NCBI RefSeq assembly: GCF_027924185.1
Contig: NZ_BRVO01000002.1
Coordinates: 434,001 to 498,000, forward strand
Length of the DNA stretch: 64,000 bases
DNA from: Neptunitalea lumnitzerae
GTDB lineage: Bacteria; Bacteroidota; Bacteroidia; Flavobacteriales; Flavobacteriaceae
Direction of reading: 5' to 3'
Shown: in pieces, positions 2,761-22,249 of the stretch
Position numbering within the stretch: the stretch's first letter is position 1
Layout: the number at the start of each line of letters is the position of its first letter
Position numbers and translations under genes: made by a program
The notes under the pieces: model-generated
Told to the model about the DNA's origin: nothing
Database searches by the model: none
Seen by the model: the letters and a program-made list of their open reading frames with translations, nothing else

Positions 2761-5700
2761 GTGAAATTTTTTAAATATTTTTTCCTTTTATTTAGCATTT
2801 CATTTTCTTTAATAAATGCTCAAGAAGTGAGTATCAAACATCTTGATATTAATTCCGGGCTATCAAATAATTCTGTTGTCCCCATTTTTCAAGATGACGA
2901 AGATTATATGTGGTTTGGTACTTATGATGGACTTAATAAATATGATGGGTATAATTTTAAGGTTTATAGAAATAAAATAGGTGATAGTACTTCATTAACT
3001 GGTAATACCATCTATTGTATTGCACAAGATAATAACCATGATATATGGGTTGGTGGTGTAAAAGGTGCAAGTAAACTAAATAAAAATACAGAAGAGTTTA
3101 GCAGATTATCTTACTATGATGTAGCACTTGGGAAAGCTTTTCCTATTACCGGAGAAGTTCATCAAATTCAAAAAATAGCCAATGGTAATATATTATTAGG
3201 CTCACAAAGATTCGGGTTACTACTTTTTAAACCAGGAGAACTAATTGGCTCACAAATACCAATAAACGTTAACGGAGAGAAGCATTATAATTATAATGCT
3301 TTAGCCATTGAATACAACAATCAAATAAATACTTGCTGGGTATCCATTAAAAATAGGGGTATATATACTATTGACTGTAAAACACTGACCCTTTCTGAAA
3401 AATATATGAAGTTTAAACAAACTATTTGTATGTTTTTTGATGAAATTACGGATACATTATGGATAGGTACAGAAGAAGGTCTTTTTAATATTAATCTGAA
3501 AAACGAAAACGTCTCTGGAAATTTTTTATCCAAAAGAGTACACGTAACAAAAATTATAAAAGATAAAGAACAGAAATTCTGGGTTACTACTGATGGATTA
3601 GGTGTTTTTACATCAACAATTCTTAATAACAAATTTGCAATAATCCCTTATTCTTTAGATAATCATCAACCTCTTAGTTCTAGTAACTCTTTTTTCAGTG
3701 TTTATGAAGATCATCAAGGTAATATTTGGTTTGGTACATTGAGAGCCGGCCTAAGTTTATTAGGTAAAAAACCATTACATTTTAAACATATTTTAGTTCC
3801 TAAAGAATCTGATGGCTCTTCATCTGATAATTTTATATTATCCTTTTCAGAGGCAAAAAATGAAGGTTTATGGATAGGAACTGATGGTGCGGGATTAAAG
3901 TATTGGAATAGAAGTAAAAATACATTTACTAACGTATTTGACGAAACCAATGATGCCAGCTTAAAAAATAGTTTTGTAACTGGAATAACCAAGGGTGAAG
4001 GAGATGATTTGTGGATTTCAACCTGGTATACAGGCATTATTTATTTAAACACCAAAACTAAAAACGTTAAACGTTATGAATGCTTTAATCTACATACAAA
4101 TCAAATAGAAAAGAATGTTTGGTTTATTTTTAAAGATCATAGCAACAGACTTTGGGCAAGCACTACAAATGAAGGTACGCTGTATCTTTATAACAAAATA
4201 GAAGATAAATTTGAGGTTTTTCATAAAGATATCACTAATCTACAAAGTATAGAACAAACAAGTGATGGTAAGCTTTGGGCTGGTAATTACAACACCCTTT
4301 TTAAAATAGATATTGATGCGGTTACTTATCAAAGTTATGACCTAGGTTATCCTATAAGATCTATAAAGGAGGACCATGAGCAAAATTTATGGATTGGCAC
4401 ACAAGAGGGTGGGTTATTACTATTTGACCAAAATACGGGTTCTTATGAAAGATTTACGAAGGCCGATGGTTTACCAGGCAATAATATCTTAAGGATTCTA
4501 GAGGATAATAATCATAACTTATGGTTAAGTACATATAATGGATTGACCAAATTCAATAAGAAAGATATTTTTAGGAATTTTTCGGTATCCGATGGTTTAC
4601 AAAGTAATCAGTTTAGCTTTAATGCGGCACTAAAATTATCAGATGGTGCAATGGTATTTGGAGGTATTAATGGTTTCAATATTTTTAATCCTAATGATAT
4701 TGTAGAGCAACAATCTAAAAAAGAATTAAGGCTTAACGAAATCTGGTTAAATAATAAACCACTACATAATGTAAGTGAGTATATCACTACTTCCGATTAT
4801 AATGGACTAAAAAAATTAAAGTTGCCATACTATCAAACAGCACTTTCATTAGAATTTGTATCCATAGAATTTTGGCACCCAGATAAACTACAATATGCCT
4901 ATAAGCTTGAAGGATGGGATGAAAACTGGAATGTTATTGATAATATACGTAGAGCAAATTATAGTAAACTTCTAGATGGTGATTACGTTTTTAAAGTGAA
5001 GATAAAAGATGATAACGGAACTTGGGGAAAGCCTGTTACGCTAGCTACAATCAAAGTACTTCCGCCATGGTATAGAACTTGGTGGGCTTATTTATTATAT
5101 ATAATCTTTACTATTGGAGTTGTTTATATAGGAATAACCTACAGTAAGAATAAGGTACAGATGAAACATAACGTTGAATTAGCCAAATTAGAAAGTAAGA
5201 AGGAAAAAGAGCTGGCTACTCAACAAAGAGAAATGTTTACCTATATCTCACATGAATTTAGAACTCCACTTTCTTTAATTATAGATCCTATAAAACAAAT
5301 AGTTGATAAAGATATAGGTACAGATAAAACGGATAATGAGGAAGGACTAAAGGTAGCTTACAGAAATGCCAAACGATTACTGAGTTTAGTAAATCAGTTT
5401 TTAGTTTTTAGAAAAGCTGAAAGCAACGCAATAGATTTAAAAATTGCCTTTTTTGATTTAAAATTATTGTGTGCTGAAGTATACGAGTGTTTTGTAAATC
5501 TTGCAGAAGAACAACAAATTGACTTTAAACTTATTTTACCCGAAACAGAAACAAAAGTATATGCAGATTATGAACGTATTGAAATTGCACTTTTCAACTT
5601 ATTATCTAATGCGTTTAAGCATACTCCAAAAAATGGAAATATCAACTTAGAAATTCAAACTAATAATGATGTAGTTAAAATTTTTATAAGTGATACTGGT

Positions 5701-6843
5701 TGTGGTATAAGTGCAGAAGATTTGCCCTATATATTTGATAAGTTTAAAAGAGTAAAGACCAATTCTCATACTAAAAGTGGCTTTGGCATAGGCTTGTTTG
5801 TAGTAGACCATTTTATAAAAAAACATAAAGGCTCAATAAATTGCAAAAGTATAGTAGGAGAGGGTACCACATTTACAATAACCTTAAAATTAGATAAGGA
5901 TCATTTTGGGGATATCAATATTTTAGAAAACATACCAACTCACACAGAGTTAGCACAAGAACTATTAATAAGCGACACTACAGACACCAAAGTAGCTAAA
6001 GAAATTAATGAAAAACTCAACTTTAAAAAAGAGTTTATTTCTGAAAAACGATCGGTACTCATAGTTGAAGATGATACAGAAATGAGAGAATACTTAATTA
6101 GCCTGTTTAAAACAGATTATATTGTATACAATGCTATTAATGGAATAGATGGGTATGACCAAATATTAAAGTATAATCCAGATATTGTTATAAGCGATAT
6201 TGCTATGGAAGGCTTAAACGGTGTAGAGTTATGTAGTAAATTAAAAGAAAACGAAAATTTGAATCATATTCCAATTATTCTTTTAACTGCTACATCTAGT
6301 CCTGAAATACAATTACAAAGTATTTCTAATGGAGCAGATGATTATATAACCAAACCTTTTGATAGTTCTATCTTAAAAGCTAAGGTTGAGCGTTTACTCA
6401 TAAGCAGAAATGAATTAAGAAAATACTTCTTAGAAAATATAACGCAAAAAGAAGACTATAAAGTACCAGCAGAATTTAAAGACTTTTTGATAAAATGCAA
6501 TCAAATTATTGAAGCCAACTTAAGCAATAAAGACTTTAATCTTAAAATGTTAGCGCAAGATATGGGAATGAGTCATAGAAGTCTTTATGATAAAATTAAA
6601 CAAATCACAGGATTAACACTTAATGCATATATTAGAAATGTTAGAATTAGACATGCAGCATTTTTAATGCTGACCGAAAACAAAACAATTGCTCAAATTG
6701 GATCATTAGTTGGTCTAGAAGATCAAAAGTATTTTAGACAGCAGTTTGTAAAGATATATGAAATGACACCTTCTGAATATATCAAACGATATAAAGATGC
6801 TTTTCATAAGAATCTAAATATTATATCCAAAAAAAATAATTAA
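2761..6843 (+). CDS. Hybrid two-component system sensor/AraC-type regulator of the PUL
   Basis: This one-protein two-component system senses glycan fragments in the periplasm and activates PUL genes. In order it has a signal peptide (1-20), about 14 two-bladed-propeller type repeats with WIGT/WFGT signatures (to about 690), a Y_Y_Y domain (about 700-765), a membrane helix (about 774-795), a histidine kinase (H831 in SHEFRTPLS, N box NLLSNAFKH, G boxes DTGCGI and GFGIGLF), a receiver (phospho-acceptor D1146 in VISDIAMEG, KPFD loop) and an AraC-type helix-turn-helix (about 1255-1355). The start is GTG at 2761: no in-frame ATG lies near the signal peptide. It sits directly upstream of the GH5-susCD-GH cluster on the same strand, the usual position for such regulators. 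Its likely operator is the tandem repeat at 6961-7002. Confidence 0.95.
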   Translation: MKFFKYFFLLFSISFSLINAQEVSIKHLDINSGLSNNSVVPIFQDDEDYMWFGTYDGLNKYDGYNFKVYRNKIGDSTSLTGNTIYCIAQDNNHDIWVGGVKGASKLNKNTEEFSRLSYYDVALGKAFPITGEVHQIQKIANGNILLGSQRFGLLLFKPGELIGSQIPINVNGEKHYNYNALAIEYNNQINTCWVSIKNRGIYTIDCKTLTLSEKYMKFKQTICMFFDEITDTLWIGTEEGLFNINLKNENVSGNFLSKRVHVTKIIKDKEQKFWVTTDGLGVFTSTILNNKFAIIPYSLDNHQPLSSSNSFFSVYEDHQGNIWFGTLRAGLSLLGKKPLHFKHILVPKESDGSSSDNFILSFSEAKNEGLWIGTDGAGLKYWNRSKNTFTNVFDETNDASLKNSFVTGITKGEGDDLWISTWYTGIIYLNTKTKNVKRYECFNLHTNQIEKNVWFIFKDHSNRLWASTTNEGTLYLYNKIEDKFEVFHKDITNLQSIEQTSDGKLWAGNYNTLFKIDIDAVTYQSYDLGYPIRSIKEDHEQNLWIGTQEGGLLLFDQNTGSYERFTKADGLPGNNILRILEDNNHNLWLSTYNGLTKFNKKDIFRNFSVSDGLQSNQFSFNAALKLSDGAMVFGGINGFNIFNPNDIVEQQSKKELRLNEIWLNNKPLHNVSEYITTSDYNGLKKLKLPYYQTALSLEFVSIEFWHPDKLQYAYKLEGWDENWNVIDNIRRANYSKLLDGDYVFKVKIKDDNGTWGKPVTLATIKVLPPWYRTWWAYLLYIIFTIGVVYIGITYSKNKVQMKHNVELAKLESKKEKELATQQREMFTYISHEFRTPLSLIIDPIKQIVDKDIGTDKTDNEEGLKVAYRNAKRLLSLVNQFLVFRKAESNAIDLKIAFFDLKLLCAEVYECFVNLAEEQQIDFKLILPETETKVYADYERIEIALFNLLSNAFKHTPKNGNINLEIQTNNDVVKIFISDTGCGISAEDLPYIFDKFKRVKTNSHTKSGFGIGLFVVDHFIKKHKGSINCKSIVGEGTTFTITLKLDKDHFGDINILENIPTHTELAQELLISDTTDTKVAKEINEKLNFKKEFISEKRSVLIVEDDTEMREYLISLFKTDYIVYNAINGIDGYDQILKYNPDIVISDIAMEGLNGVELCSKLKENENLNHIPIILLTATSSPEIQLQSISNGADDYITKPFDSSILKAKVERLLISRNELRKYFLENITQKEDYKVPAEFKDFLIKCNQIIEANLSNKDFNLKMLAQDMGMSHRSLYDKIKQITGLTLNAYIRNVRIRHAAFLMLTENKTIAQIGSLVGLEDQKYFRQQFVKIYEMTPSEYIKRYKDAFHKNLNIISKKNN

Positions 6844-6960
6844 ATCTATAGCCGTATAAGAAATATAGGTGAAGTTTTGAGTTTCTATACGATTGTTAGA
6901 AATATATATTTTTATAACTTCTTTTTTAAAATATACTCAAAATAACAGTTCAAAAATCAC

Positions 6961-7002
6961 TTATTTTCAATTTACCCCCTGTTTATTTTCAAATTTACCC
7001 CC
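6961..7002 (+). promoter_or_regulatory. Tandem 19/20-bp repeat, candidate operator of the hybrid regulator, with weak -7 box downstream
   Basis: Two near-identical copies of TTATTTTCAA(A)TTTACCCCC lie head to tail at 6961-6979 and 6983-7002, offset 22-23 bases, about two helical turns. This is the layout expected for a dimer of AraC-type DNA-binding domains. A near-consensus Bacteroidota -7 box, TTAATTTG, follows at 7025-7032. The runs of C stand out in very AT-rich intergenic DNA between the regulator and the first enzyme gene. Binding by the adjacent regulator is inferred from position and spacing. Confidence 0.6.
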
Positions 7003-7138
7003 ATACTATTATTCATTTCATCACTTAATTTGCATATAGAAATCATTAACTATAACGTTGGAGTGTTAAAATATTAACAGATTTCAATTAGTTATGATTT
7101 CTAAAATAAATGAGTGCAATTTGAGAACCTATATCTAC

Positions 7139-8620
7139 ATGACAGCTTTTAAATATTTATTCTTTGGGATACTTACACTTCAAATAATTGGGTGTAATGA
7201 AGATTCAATAAATGACATTGAAGTGGATGCTAATCTTCCTGAACAAATGGAAGCTACAAATCCTATTGCGGAAAATACATCCAATGTGAAAGGGGTTAAT
7301 TGGGCAGATGCTCGAGATAATTTCGTTGACACCTGGCTGGTGTTGTCAGGTTTAAATGTTTCTGATGATCTTGCAGATGTCACGTCTAAAACGGAAATTA
7401 TTATTTCTAGTCTTCAAGATAAAGGCATCAATATGGTAAGATTACCTGTTAACCCTGCCACAGTACTTCAAAATTGGTGGCCACAACATTCAACAACTAT
7501 AAGTACTTCAGCTGCCTTGGGTATGAATGTTATAATTGCTTATTGGGAAGGAGATTCTTCTAAAGATGGTAAAGTTGATAACTTGACTAGTTTTTACTCC
7601 ATGTGGGACACTCTTATTACCAAGTATGTAGGTAATGAAAATGTGTATTTTGAAATTATGAATGAACCACACGGCTATAGTGAAGAAGAACTAAAAACAA
7701 TATATGCTGATTGGATAGCTCATTATCCTGATGTACCGCTAAATCGTATTGTGTTAGATGGAGTAGGTTATGCCACAGGAGTAAATGAAATAGGTTCAGA
7801 TTCAAGATTTTCAAATTGTTTATTATCCTTTCATTACTACACTTGGTTTAATAATTCTTATCAAACAACTGCAGATTGGGAATTGCCCATAAAAAATCTA
7901 CAGTTCCCAGAAAGAACCATTATGACTGAGTTTGGAGTACCTATGACTACAGGTAAAGATTATAGTACACCGCCAAATAATGATGTAGAGATTAATTATT
8001 TACAAGGTATTACCAGCATGTTACAAGAAATGGAGATAGGAAGTATTTACTGGCCTGGTATTAGAACCAATGATTCCTACAGTATGTTTACATATACTAA
8101 CAATCAATTGTTGAATACAAATGAAACCGGATTAGATAGATTATATGTAGCATGGAATATGCTAGCAATGCCTCATTATTATCCATCATTTAATGCAAAT
8201 ACACACTTCAAAATAACCAATAGAAATAGCGGTAAAGTGATAGACGTAAACGGAGGAAGTACTACTAATGGAGGTTCAATTATACAATGGGATTATTCAG
8301 GTGGTGATAATCAATTATGGAGTTTTACCATAGACCAAAATAACAGCTTTACTATCAGTAATAAAAACAGCAACAAAGTTTTAGATGTTAATAACGCTTC
8401 TACGGAAGCAGGAGCAGGAATAATTCAATGGGAAAGTTCACAATCTGATAATCAAAAGTGGATTGTTGAAAACATAGGATTTGGATATTCTAAAATCATT
8501 AATAAAAACAGTGGTTTGTCCTTAGATGTTAACGGTGGAGCTACCAATAATGGGGGAGATATCATTCAATGGTATTGGAATAATGGACAAAACCAACAAT
8601 GGGAGATAAGTTCTCCTTAA
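7139..8620 (+). CDS. GH5 glycoside hydrolase lipoprotein with C-terminal ricin-type lectin domain
   Basis: This is a predicted surface lipoprotein glycosidase, probably an endo-acting enzyme. I place the start at the ATG at 7139, which gives a compact lipoprotein signal ending in LQIIGC; an ATG at 7094 would add 15 residues with no signal character. The GH5 barrel covers about residues 40-360 counted from 7139, with acid/base E176 in FEIMNEP and nucleophile E264 in IMTEFGVP. The last 135 residues are a ricin B-type beta-trefoil (CBM13-like) with three repeats ending QLW, QKW and QQW. It is the first enzyme gene after the regulator and precedes susC by 100 bases. The GH5 subfamily, and so the bond cleaved, cannot be fixed by eye. 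Confidence 0.88.
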   Translation: MTAFKYLFFGILTLQIIGCNEDSINDIEVDANLPEQMEATNPIAENTSNVKGVNWADARDNFVDTWLVLSGLNVSDDLADVTSKTEIIISSLQDKGINMVRLPVNPATVLQNWWPQHSTTISTSAALGMNVIIAYWEGDSSKDGKVDNLTSFYSMWDTLITKYVGNENVYFEIMNEPHGYSEEELKTIYADWIAHYPDVPLNRIVLDGVGYATGVNEIGSDSRFSNCLLSFHYYTWFNNSYQTTADWELPIKNLQFPERTIMTEFGVPMTTGKDYSTPPNNDVEINYLQGITSMLQEMEIGSIYWPGIRTNDSYSMFTYTNNQLLNTNETGLDRLYVAWNMLAMPHYYPSFNANTHFKITNRNSGKVIDVNGGSTTNGGSIIQWDYSGGDNQLWSFTIDQNNSFTISNKNSNKVLDVNNASTEAGAGIIQWESSQSDNQKWIVENIGFGYSKIINKNSGLSLDVNGGATNNGGDIIQWYWNNGQNQQWEISSP

Positions 8621-8720
8621 CTCAGAGCTAAAACGTTGTAAAACACAAATAAGTAACCAGTCAAATTTTAATCATTATAGAACAAATAATTTATGTATGA
8701 ACTAATTCAATTTTTTAACT

Positions 8721-11700
8721 ATGAATAAATTAACCAAATATTTAAGAGTTGATAGAAAGGGAAGTAACAAGATGTTCCCTTCACTATTAATGTATTTTAC
8801 CATATTGCTTGGGTTTTCTGCACCCGCACTGTATGGTCAACAAACAATCACAGGTACCGTTATTTCAAAAACAGATGATTTTCCATTAATGGGAGCATCA
8901 GTAATGGAAAAAGGTACTTCCAATGGTACAGTTACCGATATGGATGGTAACTTTTCAATGCAAATTTCTAATAGTGATGCTGTTTTAGTATTTACTTATA
9001 TAGGATTCATAACACAAGAAATACCTGCCAATGGAGAAACAACTTTTACTGTTTATTTGGAAGAAGATTTGTCTCAATTAGATGAAGTTGTAGTTGTTGG
9101 GTATGGTGCAAAAAAGAAAGCGACCTTAGTAGGATCTGTTTCCAATGTTGGAGGAGAGGAAATCACAAAGAGTCCACAAGCAAACGTATCTAACGCCTTT
9201 GCAGGTAGAGTATCTGGTGTTATCGCTACTAACAGATCTGGAGAACCAGGATATGACGGCTCTAACATTTCTATTAGAGGTTTAGGTACTACAGGAAACA
9301 ATGATGTATTAGTCGTGGTAGATGGTGTACCAGGTCAGATAGGTGGTTTAAACCGCTTAAACCCTCAAGAAATTGAAAGTATAACGGTTTTGAAGGATGC
9401 GTCTGCTGCAATTTATGGTAGTAGAGCTGCAAATGGGGTTATATTAGTAACAACCAAAAAAGGTAAAAAAGGAGGCAAAGTAACCGTAAACTATACGTTT
9501 GACCAAGGTTTCTCTTCTCCTACAAGATTACCAGATATGGCTGATGCTGCTACATATGCTCAAATTCGTAACGAAATAGCATATTATAATAATACTAGTG
9601 ACGGATTAAATCAAGTATATTCAGATGCAGAAATTCAAATGTTTAGAGATGGTTCAGATCCTCTAAATTATGCTAATACGAATTGGGCAGATGAAGTACT
9701 TAAAAAAGTAGCTTTACAAAGTCAACATAATCTTAATGTTTCAGGTGGTTCAGAAAACACTAATTATTTCTTCTCTTTAGGAATGTTAAACCAAGAAGGT
9801 TTATATGAAAAAGGAGCTACTGAGTATAAGCAATATAACGTAAGAACCAATATTGATTCTCAAATTACAGAGCGTTTAAAAATCGGAGTTTCTTTATCAG
9901 GAAGAAAAGAAGATAGAATGTATCCTGTAGCTAGTGCAGGAAATATTTTCCGTTCTATTTACAGAGCTTATCCAACGGTTGCAGCTTATTATCCTAATGG
10001 GTTACCTTCAACAGGTATTGAAAATAGTAACCCTGCCATTGAAGCTACAAATATGGGAGGTAATACAGAAAATCCAAGATATGTATTCAATGGTATTTTA
10101 AGAGGTAGCTATGATATTCCTTTTGTTGATGGACTTTCTGTAGACGGTTTCTTTTCAGCTGATATTAGCCAAAATTCAAGTAGAACATTTGCTAAGCCAT
10201 ATGTTTTATATAATTATTTATCAGCTTCTGATACTTATGATCCTATAGTAGTTGGAGGAGGAGCTAACCAAATGCCAACGTTGTCAGAAGAACAATACAA
10301 CCAATCTATGACAGTAGGAAACTTTAAAATTAACTATAAAAATGATTTTGATTTACACCATTTAGATGCCTTCGTTGGTATTGAGCAAAGTAAATATAAA
10401 ACTCATACGTTTGGTGCTTCAAGAATTCATTTCCCAACCGCAGAAACACCTGAATTATCTCAGGGTGGAGCAGCGGCTACCGATAAAGATAACTGGGGAA
10501 GTAGTTATAATTTTACTAGAATAAGTTATTTAAGTAGAATTGCTTATGATTTTGATGAGCAATACCTACTAGAATTACAGATGAGAGTTGATGGGTCATC
10601 TAATTTCCCTAAAGGAAGTAGATATGGATTTTTCCCATCTATATCAGCAGGTTATGTGTTTACTAAGAGTGATTGGTTTAAAGATGCCGTTCCTTTTATC
10701 AACGATTTAAAATTAAGAGCTTCATGGGGGCAATTAGGTAATGATAATACTGGACAATTCCAATTCTTTGACAACTATGTATTCAACAATAGATATGTTA
10801 CTGGTGATGTTGTTACTACTGGTATAGATTTAGTTAAACTTGCAAACCAAAATATTACATGGGAAGTAGCTACCAAAACAGACATTGGTATTAATGCTAG
10901 ATGGTTAGATGGTTTTACTACTGAATTGATTTATTTCCAACAAAATAGAACCGATATTTTAACTACCAGAAATGCTTCTATCCCTGGAACAACTGGTATT
11001 GTAAATGGCTACGATCAAGACCCTTTAGTACCTGCAGAAAATATTGGTGAAGTAAAAAGTAATGGTTTTGAAGCTACGTTAGGATATAGAACTGCTGGAG
11101 AAGACTTTAATTGGGGTGTTACAGGAAATTTCACGTATGCAAAAAATGAAATCGTATTTATTGATGAAGCATCTGGAACTTTAGATTACCAAAGACAAAC
11201 AGGTAATTCTATGAATACTTATTTATTATATAACGCAATAGGAATATTTAGAAGTGAAGAAGAATTAAATAGCTACCCTCACGTACCAGGAGCCATGGTA
11301 GGAGATTTAATCTATGAAGATTATAACAATGACGGAGAGATTACTGCTGACGATATGGTTCGAACAGATTATGGTAACATTCCTAGAATGACTTTTGGTT
11401 TAGTGTTAGACGCTGATTATAAAAACTTTGATTTATCAGTAGTTTTCTCAGGGCAAGCACAAGTAAGACAGTATGTATTGCCTGAGTCTGGTACTGTAGG
11501 TAACTTCTATAGTAGTTGGGCAGATAACAGATGGAGTCCTACAAACCCTAACGGGTCTTATCCTAGAGTTAGTGAACGTGCCTCTTCTGCAATTAGTGGT
11601 GGTTTATATAGAAATAACTTTTGGTTAAACAATGCTGCTTTTGTTAGATTAAAAAATATTCAATTAGGCTATAATGTTCCTAAAAAGGCATTAGAAAAAT

Positions 11701-11852
11701 TTGGTGTATCAGGATTAAGATTATATGCTAGTGCATTTAACTTATTTACACTTACAGAAGTAAAAGATTATGACCCTGAAGGTAATAGTGAAAGTGGACA
11801 ATTTTATCCACAACAAAAAATTATTAACCTAGGTTTTAATGTTCAATTTTAA
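8721..11852 (+). CDS. SusC/RagA-type TonB-dependent outer membrane glycan importer
   Basis: This is the outer-membrane transporter of the PUL, a 22-strand barrel that works with the SusD lipoprotein and TonB energy to import oligosaccharides. It has a signal peptide ending near ALYGQQ (about residue 40), a carboxypeptidase-regulatory-like domain (about 43-120, with NGTVTDMDGNFSM), the SusC linker DEVVVVGYGAKKKATL, a plug domain (about 130-245, with SNAFAGRVSGV and VLKDASAAIYGSRAANG), and a barrel ending in an aromatic residue (NLGFNVQF). There is no N-terminal STN signalling domain, which fits control by the hybrid regulator rather than by a sigma/anti-sigma pair. Eleven bases separate it from susD. 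Confidence 0.96.
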   Translation: MNKLTKYLRVDRKGSNKMFPSLLMYFTILLGFSAPALYGQQTITGTVISKTDDFPLMGASVMEKGTSNGTVTDMDGNFSMQISNSDAVLVFTYIGFITQEIPANGETTFTVYLEEDLSQLDEVVVVGYGAKKKATLVGSVSNVGGEEITKSPQANVSNAFAGRVSGVIATNRSGEPGYDGSNISIRGLGTTGNNDVLVVVDGVPGQIGGLNRLNPQEIESITVLKDASAAIYGSRAANGVILVTTKKGKKGGKVTVNYTFDQGFSSPTRLPDMADAATYAQIRNEIAYYNNTSDGLNQVYSDAEIQMFRDGSDPLNYANTNWADEVLKKVALQSQHNLNVSGGSENTNYFFSLGMLNQEGLYEKGATEYKQYNVRTNIDSQITERLKIGVSLSGRKEDRMYPVASAGNIFRSIYRAYPTVAAYYPNGLPSTGIENSNPAIEATNMGGNTENPRYVFNGILRGSYDIPFVDGLSVDGFFSADISQNSSRTFAKPYVLYNYLSASDTYDPIVVGGGANQMPTLSEEQYNQSMTVGNFKINYKNDFDLHHLDAFVGIEQSKYKTHTFGASRIHFPTAETPELSQGGAAATDKDNWGSSYNFTRISYLSRIAYDFDEQYLLELQMRVDGSSNFPKGSRYGFFPSISAGYVFTKSDWFKDAVPFINDLKLRASWGQLGNDNTGQFQFFDNYVFNNRYVTGDVVTTGIDLVKLANQNITWEVATKTDIGINARWLDGFTTELIYFQQNRTDILTTRNASIPGTTGIVNGYDQDPLVPAENIGEVKSNGFEATLGYRTAGEDFNWGVTGNFTYAKNEIVFIDEASGTLDYQRQTGNSMNTYLLYNAIGIFRSEEELNSYPHVPGAMVGDLIYEDYNNDGEITADDMVRTDYGNIPRMTFGLVLDADYKNFDLSVVFSGQAQVRQYVLPESGTVGNFYSSWADNRWSPTNPNGSYPRVSERASSAISGGLYRNNFWLNNAAFVRLKNIQLGYNVPKKALEKFGVSGLRLYASAFNLFTLTEVKDYDPEGNSESGQFYPQQKIINLGFNVQF

Positions 11853-11863
11853 GAATCTTAATT

Positions 11864-13552
11864 ATGAAAAAAATAAATATATTTAAATACATATCCGGTA
11901 TTTTTGTTGTCGGAGTGTTATTAACTTCTTGTGAAAAGGATTACCTAGATGTAACTCCAACCGATAGAGTCTCAGATGCGGCAATTTTATCTGATTCTAC
12001 TTTATTTGAAGCATATGTTGTAAATAGATATTTAGGAGTTAGACTAACAAATAAAGAAGGGGATGCCAATCAACCAGGATTTGGTAGAACTTTTGAATAT
12101 GGTATGTGGAGCTCTCTAACAGATGAATCCATCTATAATAACGATGATAACACATGGCTAATTCAACAAGGTCAGTTATCACCAGAAAATTTAGGTATTG
12201 CGGGTACATTTTGGGGTAGAAGCTATAGAAGCATTCGTGAAATAAACTATGCTTTGGCTAATATTGATCAAGTAGGAATGAGCCAAGAAAGAGTAGACCG
12301 ATTGACAGCCGAACTTAAATTTCTTAGAGCTTTTAGATATCAAGATTTAATTAGAAACTATGGGGAAGTAGTTATCATGGGAGATAACGTAGCTCAGCTA
12401 GGTGATGATTTTTCAGATCCTATGTGGTTTGATAGAAGACCTATTGAAGAAAGTATGAACTATGTGATTACAGAGTTAGATAATGCCATTTCAGAACTAC
12501 CATTATACAATGATTCTGATTATCCGGAAGGGAGAGCTACCAGAGGTGCAGCTATGGCTTTAAAATCTAGGCTGTTATTATATGCGGCAAGTCCATTATA
12601 CACAGGAGGTACTTCTGATGCTCAAAAATGGGCAGAGGCAGCACAAGCAGCACAAGACGTTATGGATTTAGGTATTTACTCTTTGTATGCTAATTATCAA
12701 GAATTGTTTACTACTGAGTCTAGTAATTCTGAATATATTTTTGCACGTTTTTATAACTTAAACGCTCGTCATTTAGCTTTAGAGATTGCCAACGGACCTA
12801 ACGGTTATGGTGGATGGGGAGGTAATGTACCTTTGCAAAATTTAGTAGATGATTACGAAATGATTGACGGTACCGAATTTGATTGGAACAATCCTGTACA
12901 TGCTGCTAATCCATACGACAATAGAGACCCAAGATTTGAAGCTACAATTTTATATAACGGTGCGCCATACAGAGATAGAACTGTTGAAACATTTTTACCA
13001 GATGGTCTAGATAGTCAGGATGGCCCTAGTAACTGGAACACAAGTAAAACAGGATACTATCTTCGCAAATTCATTAGAGAAGATCTACCGATTATAAACC
13101 CTTGGGCTGTTGCCGGAGTTCAGAATTGGATGTATTTCCGTTATGGAGAAATCTTATTAAACTATGCTGAAGCACAAAATGAGGCAATAGGACCAGATGA
13201 TTCTGTGTACGCTGCAATAAATGCTATAAGAAGTAGAGCAGGAATGCCAAACTTGCCAGTAGGTTTATCACAAACAGAAATGCGTGACCGCATTAGACAT
13301 GAAAGAAGAATTGAATTAGCTTTTGAAGAACATCGTTTTTACGATGTAAGACGTTGGATGATTGCTGATGATACAGAAAATCAGACAGCGGAGGGAATAA
13401 ACATAACCAAAGAGTCAGATGGTACTTTTACTTATGAAATTAAAACAGCTCTTCAAGGTAAAAGTTTCCAAGAGAAACATTACTGGTTACCAATACCTAG
13501 GTCTGAAATTTTAGCTTCTGACAATATGTTAGAGCAAAATCCTGGTTATTAA
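11864..13552 (+). CDS. SusD/RagB-type glycan-binding lipoprotein
   Basis: This is the cell-surface lid and binding protein that partners the upstream SusC. The lipoprotein signal ends in LLTSC, followed by EKDYLDVTPTDRVSD, typical of SusD N-termini. The helical SusD core shows ELKFLRAFRYQDLIRNYG and, near the C-terminus, RIRHERRIELAFEEHRFYD and the closing motif LPIPRSEI...NPGY. Length (562 residues) is usual for the family. It is translated 11 bases after susC and is followed by a strong hairpin (13564-13590) before the GH30 gene, so transcript levels of susCD and the downstream enzymes may differ. The glycan bound cannot be told from sequence alone. Confidence 0.96.
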   Translation: MKKINIFKYISGIFVVGVLLTSCEKDYLDVTPTDRVSDAAILSDSTLFEAYVVNRYLGVRLTNKEGDANQPGFGRTFEYGMWSSLTDESIYNNDDNTWLIQQGQLSPENLGIAGTFWGRSYRSIREINYALANIDQVGMSQERVDRLTAELKFLRAFRYQDLIRNYGEVVIMGDNVAQLGDDFSDPMWFDRRPIEESMNYVITELDNAISELPLYNDSDYPEGRATRGAAMALKSRLLLYAASPLYTGGTSDAQKWAEAAQAAQDVMDLGIYSLYANYQELFTTESSNSEYIFARFYNLNARHLALEIANGPNGYGGWGGNVPLQNLVDDYEMIDGTEFDWNNPVHAANPYDNRDPRFEATILYNGAPYRDRTVETFLPDGLDSQDGPSNWNTSKTGYYLRKFIREDLPIINPWAVAGVQNWMYFRYGEILLNYAEAQNEAIGPDDSVYAAINAIRSRAGMPNLPVGLSQTEMRDRIRHERRIELAFEEHRFYDVRRWMIADDTENQTAEGINITKESDGTFTYEIKTALQGKSFQEKHYWLPIPRSEILASDNMLEQNPGY

Positions 13553-13563
13553 GTTTAATTAAA

Positions 13564-13590
13564 ACGTATGGGCACTAGTTGCCCATACGT
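13564..13590 (+). terminator. Perfect 11-bp hairpin after susD, partial terminator/attenuator
   Basis: Arms ACGTATGGGCA (13564-13574) and TGCCCATACGT (13580-13590) pair perfectly around a 5-base loop, 12 bases after the susD stop. The tail (AATTTATATG) is only moderately T-rich, so I read it as an attenuator or 3' stabiliser inside the PUL operon rather than a full stop. The ATG at 13568 lies inside the left arm, which argues against it as the GH30 start. Confidence 0.7.
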
Positions 13591-13597
13591 AATTTAT

Positions 13598-15166
13598 ATG
13601 AATATAATACTTCTTAAAATGCTTTCTAGATTTATTTATATAATACTATCGCTAACCTTTGTAGGTTGTAGTTTTTCATCGAAAGAAGGAAAGGAGGAAC
13701 AAAAACATGGCAAAACAACATCACTTATTACAGTAGATGTAAATACAGAATTTCAAGAAATTGAAAATTTTGGAGCATCAGATGCTTGGTCTTGTCAGTT
13801 TGTAGGCAACTGGCCTATGGCTAAAAAAGATTCTATTGCAAATTGGTTATTTAGTAAAGAATTTGATGCTAAAGGAAATCCTAAAGGAATTGGTCTTTCA
13901 TTATGGAGATTCAATTTAGGGGCAGGTAGTAGTTTTCAAGGAGATAATAGTGGAATAAAAGATACTTGGAGAAGAGCGGAATCTTTTCTATTACCAAATG
14001 GTAATTATGATTGGACAAAACAAAAAGGACAGGTATGGTTTGCTCAAAAAGCGAAAGAGCTAGAGGTAGAGAACCTATTGGTATTTCTAAATAGTCCACC
14101 AGTAAATCTTACAATTACTGGAAAAGCATTTGCTAAAAACGGTAAAACCAACATAGCACCTAAAAATTATAAGCAATTTGCTAAGTACCTAGCAACCTGC
14201 ATAAAGGGTATGGAAAATATGGGGTTAAAAGTAGATTATATTAGCCCCTTTAATGAGCCACAATGGGACTGGTCAGATGGAGGGCAAGAAGGAACCCCTT
14301 ATTTAAACTCAGAAATAAATTCAATTACCAAAGTTATTAATAATCAATTCTTAGCTGATCATATTTCAACAAAAATAGATATTACAGAAGCCGGACAAAT
14401 AAACTATCTCTATCAAGATGATAACCGACCTAAAAGAGGTTCACAAATAGATTATTTTTACAACCCAAATTCAGATGGATATATAGGCGATTTAGATTTG
14501 TTAAATCACTCCATTTCAGCACATAGTTATTTTACAACGTCTCCCAAAAAACAACTAATAGACCAACGAATTAAACTGAACAACACATTAAAAAACAACG
14601 ATGTAAAATATTGGATGTCTGAATATTGTATACTAGGTGATAATGCGGGCGAAATAGAAGGAAATGGTAAAGATGTTGGGATGAATTCTGCACTATACAT
14701 GGCTAAAGTAATTCACCATGATTTGGTTGATGCACAAGCTTCTGCGTGGCATTGGTGGACAGCTATTTCTGCCTATGACTATAAAGATGGATTAATTTAT
14801 ATAGATAAGAATGAAAGTAATGGTGCTTATGAAGATAGTAAAATGTTATGGGTTTTAGGTAACTATAGCAGGTTTATTAGACCGGGATATAAAAGAATTA
14901 AAACAATTGCAGATGAGTCTATAAATACCGATGATTTTTTAATTTCTGCTTTTACAGATTCTAAAAAAAACAAGGTTATATTAGTTATTGTAGCTTTAAC
15001 AGATGCCGAACTGAATTTCGATTTGAATGCTAATAATAAATTAGTTCCAAAAAACATGTACACTACTTCTAGCAATTGTAATCTAAAACATGTTCCTATA
15101 AAAAATACAACAATACATATAACCGAACCATCGGTTACCACTATTATGTATGAGACTAAAAAGTAA
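13598..15166 (+). CDS. GH30-family glycoside hydrolase lipoprotein
   Basis: This is a predicted lipoprotein of the GH30 clan A family. An ATG at 13568 lies within the upstream hairpin, so I use 13598; 13619 is also possible. Both give a signal ending in LTFVGC. The catalytic barrel begins with ENFGASDAWSCQFVG and carries acid/base E220 in SPFNEPQWDW and putative nucleophile E342 in YWMSEYC (numbered from 13598). A C-terminal beta domain (about 400-520) completes the fold. The pattern FGASDAW...LWRFNLGAGS resembles proteins annotated as endo-beta-1,6-galactanase-like or xylanase-like GH30 members; which one applies is not decided by sequence reading. It is followed after 3 bases by a GH2 gene, so translation is probably coupled. 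Confidence 0.85.
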   Translation: MNIILLKMLSRFIYIILSLTFVGCSFSSKEGKEEQKHGKTTSLITVDVNTEFQEIENFGASDAWSCQFVGNWPMAKKDSIANWLFSKEFDAKGNPKGIGLSLWRFNLGAGSSFQGDNSGIKDTWRRAESFLLPNGNYDWTKQKGQVWFAQKAKELEVENLLVFLNSPPVNLTITGKAFAKNGKTNIAPKNYKQFAKYLATCIKGMENMGLKVDYISPFNEPQWDWSDGGQEGTPYLNSEINSITKVINNQFLADHISTKIDITEAGQINYLYQDDNRPKRGSQIDYFYNPNSDGYIGDLDLLNHSISAHSYFTTSPKKQLIDQRIKLNNTLKNNDVKYWMSEYCILGDNAGEIEGNGKDVGMNSALYMAKVIHHDLVDAQASAWHWWTAISAYDYKDGLIYIDKNESNGAYEDSKMLWVLGNYSRFIRPGYKRIKTIADESINTDDFLISAFTDSKKNKVILVIVALTDAELNFDLNANNKLVPKNMYTTSSNCNLKHVPIKNTTIHITEPSVTTIMYETKK

Positions 15167-15193
15167 AATATGAATCTATTTAAAAAAGGTATG

Positions 15194-17629
15194 ATGAGAA
15201 AGAAAATTAATATACGCCTATGCATTTATATGTTTCTCATAACTTTATGCATGCAAGCACAATCATCAATAGGTTTTGGAAATGCAAAACTTATAAATGA
15301 TAATTGGAAGTTTAAACTGGAAGAAAATGAAAATTTTACAGTTAGTTCAATCAATGATACCGATTGGAAGAGCATAAGCCTACCACATGACTGGAGTGTA
15401 AAAGAGCAACTGAGTCCTTCTCTTGCTAGTTGTACCGGATATTTACCAGGTGGAATAGGTTGGTATACTAAACAATTATTAGTTCCAGATACAAAAAAGG
15501 GTGAAAAAGTATATCTCTATTTTGAAGGCGTTTACAATAGAAGTGAAGTGTTTGTAAATGGTACATCTATTGGCAAAAGACCTAACGGATATATTTCATT
15601 TGCTTATGATATTACACCATATGTTAATTTTGGTACCCAAAATAAGATAACAGTAAAAGTAGACCATAGTAAATATGCTGATTCTAGATGGTATACCGGC
15701 TCTGGTATTTACCGAGATGTCTATTTGGTTTATGCAAACCCTATACATATACAACAATGGGGAGTGTATAGTTATCCAGTAGTAAAAGGAAATAAGGCTA
15801 CTTTGCATTATGAAGTGGCTTTGGAGAATGAAACTGATAATGCTAAAACACTAACCGTTGTAAATCAATTATTAAATTCATCTGGAACCGTTGTCAAGTC
15901 AGAGAAAAAGAATATAAAACTAGGTGCTAAAACAACTGATAAGATATCAGGTAAATTATCTATCAAAAATCCAGCACTGTGGGATTTAGAAACCCCAAAC
16001 TTATATACCTTAAAAACAATTGTTTATCAGAATAAAAGTATTATTGATAGCAATGAGTTAACAACCGGATTTAGAACATTCACATTTGACGCGAATAAAG
16101 GATTTGCACTTAATGGTACTTGGATGAAAATGAAAGGTGTGTGTCTACATCATGATGCTGGTGTATTAGGGGCAGCTGTTCCAAAAAGTGTATGGAAATC
16201 TAGACTTACTACTTTAAAATCAATGGGAGTTAACGCTATAAGAACAAGTCATAATCCGCAATCACCTGCATTTTATGAAGTATGTGACGAAATTGGATTA
16301 TTAGTACTTAATGAAGCGTACGATGAATGGAGATTTCCAAAGCGAAAATGGATTAAAGGATGGAATGTAGGAACTCCCGAATTTCAAGGTAGTTACGATA
16401 TTTTTGCAGATTGGTCTGAAAAGGATTTAGAAGATATGGTACGAAGAGATCGTAATCATGTATCTGTATTTGCATGGAGTATAGGTAATGAAGTAGATTA
16501 CCCTAATGACCCATATTCTCACCCTGTATTAGACGGAGGTAAAGACACAGGGTTTGGACAACCTGCCTATGGTGGTTACAAACCAGACGCACCTAATGCT
16601 ATGGAACTTGGTGATATTGCTCAACGCTTAGTAAAAGTGGTGAAAAAATATGATACTTCAAGACCTGTAACTGCTGGTTTAGCTGGGGTTGCAATGTCTA
16701 ATAAAACAGCTTACCCAGGTGCTTTAGATATTGTTGGGTATAATTATACTGAAAGTAAATATCAAACAGACCATGAAAAATACCCAGAAAGAGTTATTTA
16801 TGGTAGTGAAAACGGACAAGGAATTGAAGCTTGGAAAGCGGTAACCGAGAACGACCATATATTTGGACAATTTTTATGGACAGGTTTTGACTATTTAGGG
16901 GAGTCTGGTAGTTGGCCATCAAGAGGATTTTATACAGGTCTAGTAGATTTAGCTGGTAATAAAAAACCAAGAGGATATTTTAGAGAGGCTTTATGGAGTA
17001 CTAAACCAACCATATATGCAGGAACCTATATTCCTCATAAAAATCAACGTTGGGTATCAATGGATGCCTGGCCTCTTTGGAACTACAAAGAGAATGATAC
17101 TGTGAGAGTGGTAAGTTATACCAATACAGAAAAAGCTAGATTAGAGCTAGATGGAAAATTAATTGGAGAGACAAAAGCTTATGATACAAAAACTGGTATG
17201 GTCTATTGGGATGTTCCTTTTCAACCTGGTAAATTGCAGGTCATTGGAATGAATAATGATAAAGATGTTTGTACCTATAGTATAAGTACTTCAGAACGTC
17301 CTAATGCGTTGGTTATTGAAGATTTAGAAAATATACATACAAAAGGAGATATTGTACAAGTACGTATACAAATTGTAGATAAAAATGGATTACCAGTACA
17401 TATAGCGGATGATAAAATTACGTGTACTATTGAAGGGCCAGCAGAACTTTTAGGTTTAGAAGCTGGTAATAATAGTGATATGACAGATTATACAGATAAT
17501 GTACAAAGAGCATTTAAAGGTAAATTGCTAGCATATATTAAATTAACTGGAGAATCTAATGAAAACGTGAATATATCTTTTACATCTCCGTGGTTACAAA
17601 ATGTAACAACAACTTTAAAAATAAAATAA
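15194..17629 (+). CDS. GH2 beta-galactosidase-type glycoside hydrolase (short form)
   Basis: This is a predicted secreted exo-acting GH2 enzyme. I take the ATG at 15194: AAAAAAGG at 15182-15189 is well spaced from it and the signal peptide MRKKINIRLCIYMFLITL begins there; 15170 and 15191 are alternatives. Domains in order are a sugar-binding jelly roll (about 25-190, WYTGSGIYRDVYL), an Ig-like domain (about 195-300), the TIM barrel (about 305-600) with acid/base E433 in WSIGNEVDYP and nucleophile E539 in YGSENGQG, and C-terminal beta domains. The barrel motif RTSHNPQSPAFYEVCDEIG is typical. The length is as in Bacteroidota beta-galactosidases lacking the LacZ small-chain domain. It lies 33 bases upstream of the second GH2 gene. 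Confidence 0.88.
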   Translation: MRKKINIRLCIYMFLITLCMQAQSSIGFGNAKLINDNWKFKLEENENFTVSSINDTDWKSISLPHDWSVKEQLSPSLASCTGYLPGGIGWYTKQLLVPDTKKGEKVYLYFEGVYNRSEVFVNGTSIGKRPNGYISFAYDITPYVNFGTQNKITVKVDHSKYADSRWYTGSGIYRDVYLVYANPIHIQQWGVYSYPVVKGNKATLHYEVALENETDNAKTLTVVNQLLNSSGTVVKSEKKNIKLGAKTTDKISGKLSIKNPALWDLETPNLYTLKTIVYQNKSIIDSNELTTGFRTFTFDANKGFALNGTWMKMKGVCLHHDAGVLGAAVPKSVWKSRLTTLKSMGVNAIRTSHNPQSPAFYEVCDEIGLLVLNEAYDEWRFPKRKWIKGWNVGTPEFQGSYDIFADWSEKDLEDMVRRDRNHVSVFAWSIGNEVDYPNDPYSHPVLDGGKDTGFGQPAYGGYKPDAPNAMELGDIAQRLVKVVKKYDTSRPVTAGLAGVAMSNKTAYPGALDIVGYNYTESKYQTDHEKYPERVIYGSENGQGIEAWKAVTENDHIFGQFLWTGFDYLGESGSWPSRGFYTGLVDLAGNKKPRGYFREALWSTKPTIYAGTYIPHKNQRWVSMDAWPLWNYKENDTVRVVSYTNTEKARLELDGKLIGETKAYDTKTGMVYWDVPFQPGKLQVIGMNNDKDVCTYSISTSERPNALVIEDLENIHTKGDIVQVRIQIVDKNGLPVHIADDKITCTIEGPAELLGLEAGNNSDMTDYTDNVQRAFKGKLLAYIKLTGESNENVNISFTSPWLQNVTTTLKIK

Positions 17630-20775
<3,146 letters not shown>

Positions 20776-20776
<1 letters not shown>

Positions 20777-22188
20777 TGTATATAACCTGTTTCAAAAATA
20801 TAGTGATCTTTTTCCTAGCTACTTTCTTTATGGTTTCATGTGGAGAAACGGCTAAAGAAAACGTTGAGACTAAGCAAAAAGAAGAAGTAAATAAGAAGGG
20901 GAATTTTAAAGATTGGGCACAAACCCCTCCAATGGGATGGAATAGTTGGGATTGTTATGGCCCTACCGTTACAGAGAAGGAGGTAAAAGCTAATGCTGAT
21001 TATATGTCCGAACATTTAAAAAATTATGGTTGGGAATATGTAGTTGTAGACATTAGATGGTTTGTAGAAAATACTAAAGCAGCAGGCTATAACCAAACCG
21101 ACCCAAAATATGTAATTGATGAATATGGAAGGTATCAGCCTGCAGTAAATAAATTCCCTTCAGCTAAAGATGGTAAAGGATTTAAACCACTTGCAGATTA
21201 TATTCATGGTAAGGGATTAAAATTTGGAATTCATATTATGAGAGGAATTCCAGTAGAAGCAGTAACTAAAAAATCACCTGTAAAAGGAACTGATGGTATT
21301 ACCGCTGATGAAATTTACACTACAGAAAATCAATGTAAATGGTTAAGAGATAACTACACAGTGGTAGCTTCTAAAAAAGGCGCGCAAGAGTACTACAATT
21401 CATTATTTGAATTGTATGCTGCTTGGGGTGTTGATTTTATTAAAATAGATGATTTGTCTGCACCTATATATCATGAAGATGAAATAAATTTAATAAGAAA
21501 AGCTATAGACAATTGTGGTAGAAAAATAGTTTTAAGTACATCCCCTGGAGAAACTCCAATTGAAAGTGCAGAACACGTTAGTGAAAACGCAAATATGTGG
21601 AGAATGGTGAATGATGTATGGGATGAATGGTTGCATCTAAAACATTTAATGGAGGTATCCCAAGACTGGTATCCGTACATAGGTGACGGAACATGGCCAG
21701 ATTGTGATATGATTCCTTTAGGAAAAATTTCGATTAGAGGAGAAAGGGGAGAAGAGCGTATGACTAGATTAACCAAAGAAGAGCAGTATAGTTTAATGAC
21801 GTTTTTTTGTATTATGAAATCTCCTTTATTCTTTGGTGGTGATTTACCTAGTAATGATGAATTTACATTATCATTATTAACCAATAAAGAGCTTTTAAAA
21901 ATGCATAGTAATGCCACTAATGTGAAACAATTATTTCAAAAAGATAATGAACTAGCCATCACATCAAGTGACAGTGCATCTAACACTACTTATCTCGCAT
22001 TGTTTAATATAGGAGATGAAGAAGATAGAGAGATAACTATTCCGCTACGCAAGCTAAATTTAGAAAATAAAGAAATGGTAGTAAACGAAATTTTAAGTAA
22101 AAACACTTATAGTATAGATGATAAAAAACTTAAAGTAACACTTAAACCACATGAGTCTTACTTACTATCATTCAGTTTAGTAAAATAG
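20776..22188 (+). CDS. GH27-type alpha-galactosidase-like lipoprotein
   Basis: This predicted lipoprotein (signal ending FMVSC) has the GH27 melibiase opening TPPMGWNSWDCYG. The presumed nucleophile is D225 in FIKIDDLS and the acid/base is D280 in WRMVNDVWDEW. In classical GH27 enzymes the segment after the third strand reads like FGIYSDAGTKTC; here it reads FGIHIMRGIPVEAV, without the cysteine. This branch could therefore be an alpha-galactosidase with an altered pocket or a beta-L-arabinopyranosidase, both known in GH27. A C-terminal beta domain closes the protein. It is the last gene of the PUL and is followed by a hairpin terminator at 22213-22249. Its presence implies alpha-galactose or L-arabinopyranose caps on the target glycan. 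Confidence 0.85.
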
Positions 22189-22212: not shown

Positions 22213-22249
22213 AAAAACGAACAGATGAACAATTCATTTGTCCGTTTTT
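22213..22249. terminator. Bidirectional terminator between the PUL and the convergent gene
   Basis: A 17-base arm (22213-22229) and its near-complement (22233-22249) enclose a 3-base loop, with A5/T5 runs at the two ends so it can work on both strands. Two positions are unpaired or wobble. It lies between converging stop codons at 22188 and 22259. Confidence 0.8.

Follow-up and report, generated by a model that had tools for sequence, protein, structure and literature searches.

PULs are the main route by which Bacteroidota eat glycans, and HTCSs are among the commonest switches of these loci. Within the 64-kb stretch of Neptunitalea lumnitzerae DNA analyzed here (the window), an HTCS gene stands ahead of a PUL, and an earlier note had proposed that a two-copy direct repeat between them is the operator of the regulator. 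Is this dyad the operator of the adjacent HTCS, how would it act on the promoter, and does a single promoter serve the whole gene block? The note's remark that such operators are rarely known holds for footprinted sites, none of which appeared in the literature searched (predicted motifs and gel shifts only, all Bacteroides). It is less apt for predicted sites: HTCS motifs of the same layout were published in 2013, in a study whose text gives direct repeats, on average 21 bp apart, for 16 B. thetaiotaomicron HTCSs (Ravcheev et al. 2013, PMC3878776).

Domain search and an uninterrupted reading frame define the regulator gene (2761–6843, plus strand; 1360 aa). Its single chain combines a periplasmic propeller (Reg_prop/Y_Y_Y sensor), HisKA, HATPase, a receiver and an HTH_18 AraC-type DNA-binding domain (residues 1264–1343), as expected of an HTCS. 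The receiver reads NHIP where the S/CHIP inhibitory motif would be, a motif whose first residue is S or C in 84% of HTCSs (PMC11253607). The closest regulators found, those of loci L048, L049, L050 and L051, are 44–50% identical to the window HTCS, and a scan of the genome collection with the window regulator gave one distant match. Downstream on the plus strand, domain searches identified a first structural gene encoding GH5 with a ricin-type lectin (7139–8620; an in-frame ATG also lies at 7094, and the start at 7139 was picked by the appearance of its lipoprotein-like signal peptide, MTAFKYLFFGILTLQIIGC), homologues of susC (8721–11852) and susD (11864–13552), and a GH30 gene (Glyco_hydr_30_2, 13598–15166). 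These are followed by two GH2 genes, one of beta-galactosidase type (15170–17629) and one for a large beta-galactosidase with a small-chain domain (17663–20776), and by a GH27-type alpha-galactosidase gene (20776–22188). A perfect 11-bp hairpin with a 5-nt loop lies in the susD/GH30 gap (13564–13590, plus strand; -18.4 kcal/mol, z -5.25); the listed GH30 start at 13568 falls within it, so 13598 is the likelier start. The GH5/GH30/GH2/GH2/GH27 set presumably points to a beta-galactan or arabinogalactan substrate.

The dyad sits in the 295-base gap between the HTCS stop (6843) and the first PUL gene (7139, or 7094 with the alternative start). Letter by letter, box 1 is TTATTTTCAATTTACCCCC (6961–6979) and box 2 is TTATTTTCAAATTTACCCCC (6983–7002), exactly confirming the repeat and its reported distance of 22–23 bases: the boxes start 22 bases apart, and the TTTACCCCC cores (6971–6979 and 6994–7002, separated by 14 bases) are 23 apart owing to an additional A in copy 2. 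Within the 64 kb, TTTACCCCC occurs twice, both times in the dyad, in agreement with the statement that no other core pair precedes the remaining PUL genes. At least two cores were found anywhere in 3 of 100 dinucleotide shuffles of the window; the core pair by itself is only mildly unusual, the adjacent near-identical 19–20-nt copies much more so. A search for two cores separated by 8–20 bases returned a single occurrence in the 3.85-Mb genome and, as an exact pattern, none in 99 relatives, where the search is empty because the letters diverge while the dyad class persists. When the pattern was loosened to ACCCC-N15..19-ACCC, the 57 genomic matches were at background (54 for the reversed control), and the dyad is therefore not a dispersed regulon motif. 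Near-matches to single copies elsewhere in the genome were rejected as further regulon members, since those inspected were all intragenic, in coding sequence. Just 3' of the HTCS stop, two 23-nt partial direct repeats (6845–6906; 74% identical, 39 apart) were also seen and set aside, their folding being no better than that of shuffles.

The phylum -7 consensus is TAnnTTTG, located at -12 to -5 (PMC7366714, PMC9723704). A near-consensus box had been noted 22 bases downstream of the dyad, and TTAATTTG indeed lies there (7025–7032, plus strand), with 22 intervening bases and one mismatch to TAnnTTTG (5 of 6 fixed bases), as in a Bacteroidota sigma-A promoter; sigma-70 scans were dropped as uninformative in this phylum. 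From the position of this box, transcription is predicted to start near 7037, which would place box 1 at -76 to -58 and box 2 at -54 to -35. Box 2 is thus predicted to end just upstream of the would-be -33 element, abutting its place.

To place the dyad among related sites, we compared noncoding DNA from 72 HTCS loci (74 HTCS-downstream regions), mostly of the same family. Direct CCCC-CCCC pairs concentrated at spacings of 20–24 (27 pairs, versus 0–2 at each other spacing), and direct pairs of an independent word, GTTAC, concentrated at spacing 21. CCCC pairs occurred in 11 regions, against a mean of 2.3 and a maximum of 6 in dinucleotide shuffles, and GTTAC pairs in 15 against 0.6; CCCC pairs were present in 7/64 HTCS-downstream regions versus 4/335 other regions. 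Repeat-lag profiles free of any motif gave a modest excess only, at 20–24. A two-box expectation-maximisation model resolved two classes: class A (approximately ta..aACgATTTa.CCCc, spacing 22), which includes the window dyad and whose membership is biased towards the window because the model was seeded from that dyad, and class B (approximately TGtTACATaTnT.atAtc, spacing 21). With the window dyad left out of its own model, it scored 18.3 nats, above all 2,960 shuffled regions (largest 13.3), and dyads reached p<0.01 in 11 of the 74 regions, where 0.74 were expected. Scanning the first 24 kb of the window as a whole locus revealed no second separate noncoding class A dyad: a score of 11.2 at 6984–7024 re-uses box 2 and overlaps the dyad itself, and one of 13.3 (8553–8592, minus strand) lies inside the GH5 gene. 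No clear dyad of either class was seen in the gap (~600 bp) downstream of L058 (G000:C2:565063-569001), the only other full-length HTCS found in the genome. As a separate observation, TGTTACAT boxes occur twice, at spacing 21, directly 3' of the HTCS gene in L107, L101, L092, L087, L091 and others; this second HTCS operator class is very regular, with TTTG/TTTAC of the -7 box mostly exactly 23 nt past the second box.

Three further lines of evidence are not tied in the same way to the seeding from the window: promoter geometry, regulator phylogeny and independent loci. The -7 box was excluded from the motif model, and TTTG/TTTAC, its 3' part, begins 25–27 nt past box 2 in every one of the 11 class A sites. 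In class B, 13 of 20 sites have it at exactly 23 nt; for either class, none of 2000 randomisations reached the observed counts in 2-nt bins. A class A dyad, followed by TTTG at 27, is present at each locus of the four nearest regulators, diverged in letters and located in noncoding DNA: GATTTCACCCC...GATTTCACCCCC in L051, TTTGACCTCC...TTTACCCC in L048 and L049, and in L050 a dyad that precedes a divergent susC and reads on the opposite strand. The PULs of these four loci differ from the window PUL (though L048 also has two GH30 genes). With other gene sets under the nearest regulators, it is the dyad class that is conserved and not the particular letters of the window repeat. An orthologous copy of the whole window PUL was not found; the nearest susC locus, L160 (50% susC identity), was rejected as an orthologous test, its HTCS being divergently oriented and 27% identical, and its dyad weak.

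A single A/B change suffices on a tree of the 74 DNA-binding domains, and the window HTCS falls in one clade (starred in the tree) with L048–L051. In the larger group that includes this clade, most members lacking a directly downstream dyad carry it at another place in the locus (L049, L050, L065, L073); class A-clade loci in which no dyad was found are L052 and L067, joined by L141 among the independent test loci described below. The residues that separate the A and B clades include Y1276 (versus H) and D1321, K1323 and R1326 (versus T/S, S and I), and they lie largely in the second HTH, which holds the latter three. We then called class A dyads at shuffle p <=0.025 in 60 further loci, 20 of which had been scanned once earlier with the same matrix, using the residue rule derived from the 74-domain clade comparison: of the 8 regulators that carry D, K/R and R at these places, 7 had a class A dyad, compared with 6 of 52 others (Fisher p = 3e-5). 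Six of those seven come from genomes outside the order. The corresponding relation between class B and helix residues was not significant in the independent loci (p = 0.08). At L138 and L139, both outside the order, the -7 place reads TTTAG/TTTAGC, not TTTG, which suggests a slightly different -7 preference.

Very probably, the dyad serves the adjacent HTCS as its operator and forms part of the promoter that drives the galactan-type PUL downstream. The reading proposed by the earlier note is thereby supported, both by the diverged noncoding dyads with conserved -7 distance at the loci of the nearest regulators and by the way dyad class tracks DNA-binding-domain relationship and helix residues in loci outside model building. 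Points against it are the absence of an orthologous PUL copy in our searches, the seeding of the model from the window dyad, the class A-clade loci that show no dyad, the six regulators that pass the dyad threshold although they lack the residue set, and the mismatch in the -7 box. The dyad, its class, the fixed -7 distance and the link to the DNA-binding domain are established by sequence; from these we infer binding, phosphorylation control, an assignment of helices to half-sites, and activation. Oligosaccharide binding by the periplasmic propeller would lead to phosphorylation that frees the C-terminal AraC-type domain, and two such domains would sit next to each other on the two boxes, two helical turns apart and on the same face of the DNA. 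Each box would be read by two HTH units, the first contacting the TTATTTTCAA part and the second the ACCCCC/GGGGGT part via Asp1321, Lys1323 and Arg1326; the residue correlation and the usual AraC-family HTH order suggest K1323 and R1326 as the residues that contact the GGGG strand. With box 2 predicted to end immediately 5' of the -33 region, we propose that the regulator substitutes for a -33 element and brings sigma-A RNA polymerase to the -7 box TTAATTTG, which would switch on GH5 and the genes behind it. Related HTCS fragments gel-shift PUL promoter DNA, and their receiver restrains them until phosphorylated (PMC11253607).

A different role for the same site is unlikely but is the most probable of the alternatives: the dyad would be an HTCS operator used by a repressor or autoregulator, or would drive GH5 only, with a separate promoter from susC onward. 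BT2391-type HTCSs can repress (PMC11253607), and the NHIP receiver motif together with the 100-nt gap ahead of susC would suit this reading; however, the placement of box 2, just 5' of -33 and with its distance conserved, is that of an activator site, and that gap holds neither a class A dyad nor a stable hairpin. PUL promoters also contain operators of other regulators, so that a LacI-type, global Crp-like or unlinked AraC-type protein might bind the dyad while the HTCS acts elsewhere. We consider this very improbable: dyads of classes A and B sort according to the tree of HTCS DNA-binding domains and, in independent loci, according to recognition-helix residues; a global regulator would leave many genomic copies whereas the pair is unique in the genome; and the direct-repeat layout differs from the palindromic global motif that the text of PMC3878776 gives for Bacteroides. 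A functionless tandem duplication, by chance or replication slippage, would fit two boxes that are nearly identical, more alike than in most related sites, and located in AT-rich noncoding DNA, but it is extremely unlikely, as a degenerate form of the motif, at this spacing and this distance to -7, turns up in many genomes whose flanking sequences are unrelated.

With the dyad taken as an activating HTCS operator, it is plausible from the sequence that one promoter drives the whole 15-kb block (7139–22188), as the earlier note had suggested. Support for this is indirect. The lone dyad, the short intergenic gaps and a terminator-like hairpin with a U-rich tail after GH27 (22213–22249, plus strand; -14.3 kcal/mol, z -3.6) agree with it; the 100-nt gap between GH5 and susC, the exception among the short gaps, and the susD/GH30 hairpin count against it, and expression may therefore be stepped. 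The susD/GH30 hairpin itself could be an intercistronic expression step or an RNA-processing hairpin.

AraC/XylS class II activators (AraC, XylS, SoxS) bind direct-repeat sites with two HTH units per site, and at class II promoters the proximal site adjoins or overlaps the -35 region. The site proposed here is alike in its direct repeats, two HTH contacts per site and polymerase-proximal placement; unlike AraC, XylS and SoxS, the window regulator is fused to a membrane sensor kinase and paired with Bacteroidota sigma-A and a TAnnTTTG -7 box. The closer likeness is to the Bacteroides HTCS operators: the text of PMC3878776 likewise places two direct sites ahead of PUL operons controlled by AraC-type HTCSs, with motif similarity that also follows regulator phylogeny. 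The window repeat belongs to this already predicted kind of direct-repeat HTCS operator (PMC3878776), lying ahead of PUL genes and beside an AraC-type HTCS, with two similar sites in the same orientation 22–23 bp apart (~21 bp in that kind) and a motif common to the loci of related regulators. SusR-type Bacteroides operators are also direct repeats ahead of sus-like operons, but their repeat centres are 67 or 77 bp apart according to the text of PMC3878776, compared with 22 in the window. That study covers 11 Bacteroides genomes, whereas the present sites are mainly flavobacterial. To its text they add the CCCC and TGTTACA classes, with some possible overlap in letters, the rigid -7 distance and the recognition-helix correlate. 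Its logos aside, our results go further by defining the class explicitly, by following it through the family and outside it, and by tying it to a fixed -7 distance and to regulator residues.

A wider rule, that HTCS operators across Bacteroidia form a small number of sequence classes predictable from a few residues of the AraC-type domain, each class with a rigid -7 distance, may or may not hold, and we see the case as evenly balanced. In its specific terms, D..K..R in the second recognition helix would specify ACCCC half-sites, and TGTTACA half-sites would go with an H in the first HTH combined with an S in the second. If true, a residue-to-operator code could be read from PUL regulator to promoter, and regulons could be assigned from sequence alone. 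Promoter geometry that is fixed within an operator class, together with its residue correlate, could help to predict operators in marine and soil flavobacteria, and such a class offers short parts for inducible promoters. For the N. lumnitzerae genome, the prediction is that one dyad controls one galactan-type PUL. At L143, two divergent class A dyads lie back to back (12579–12687), like a divergent promoter pair under one HTCS.
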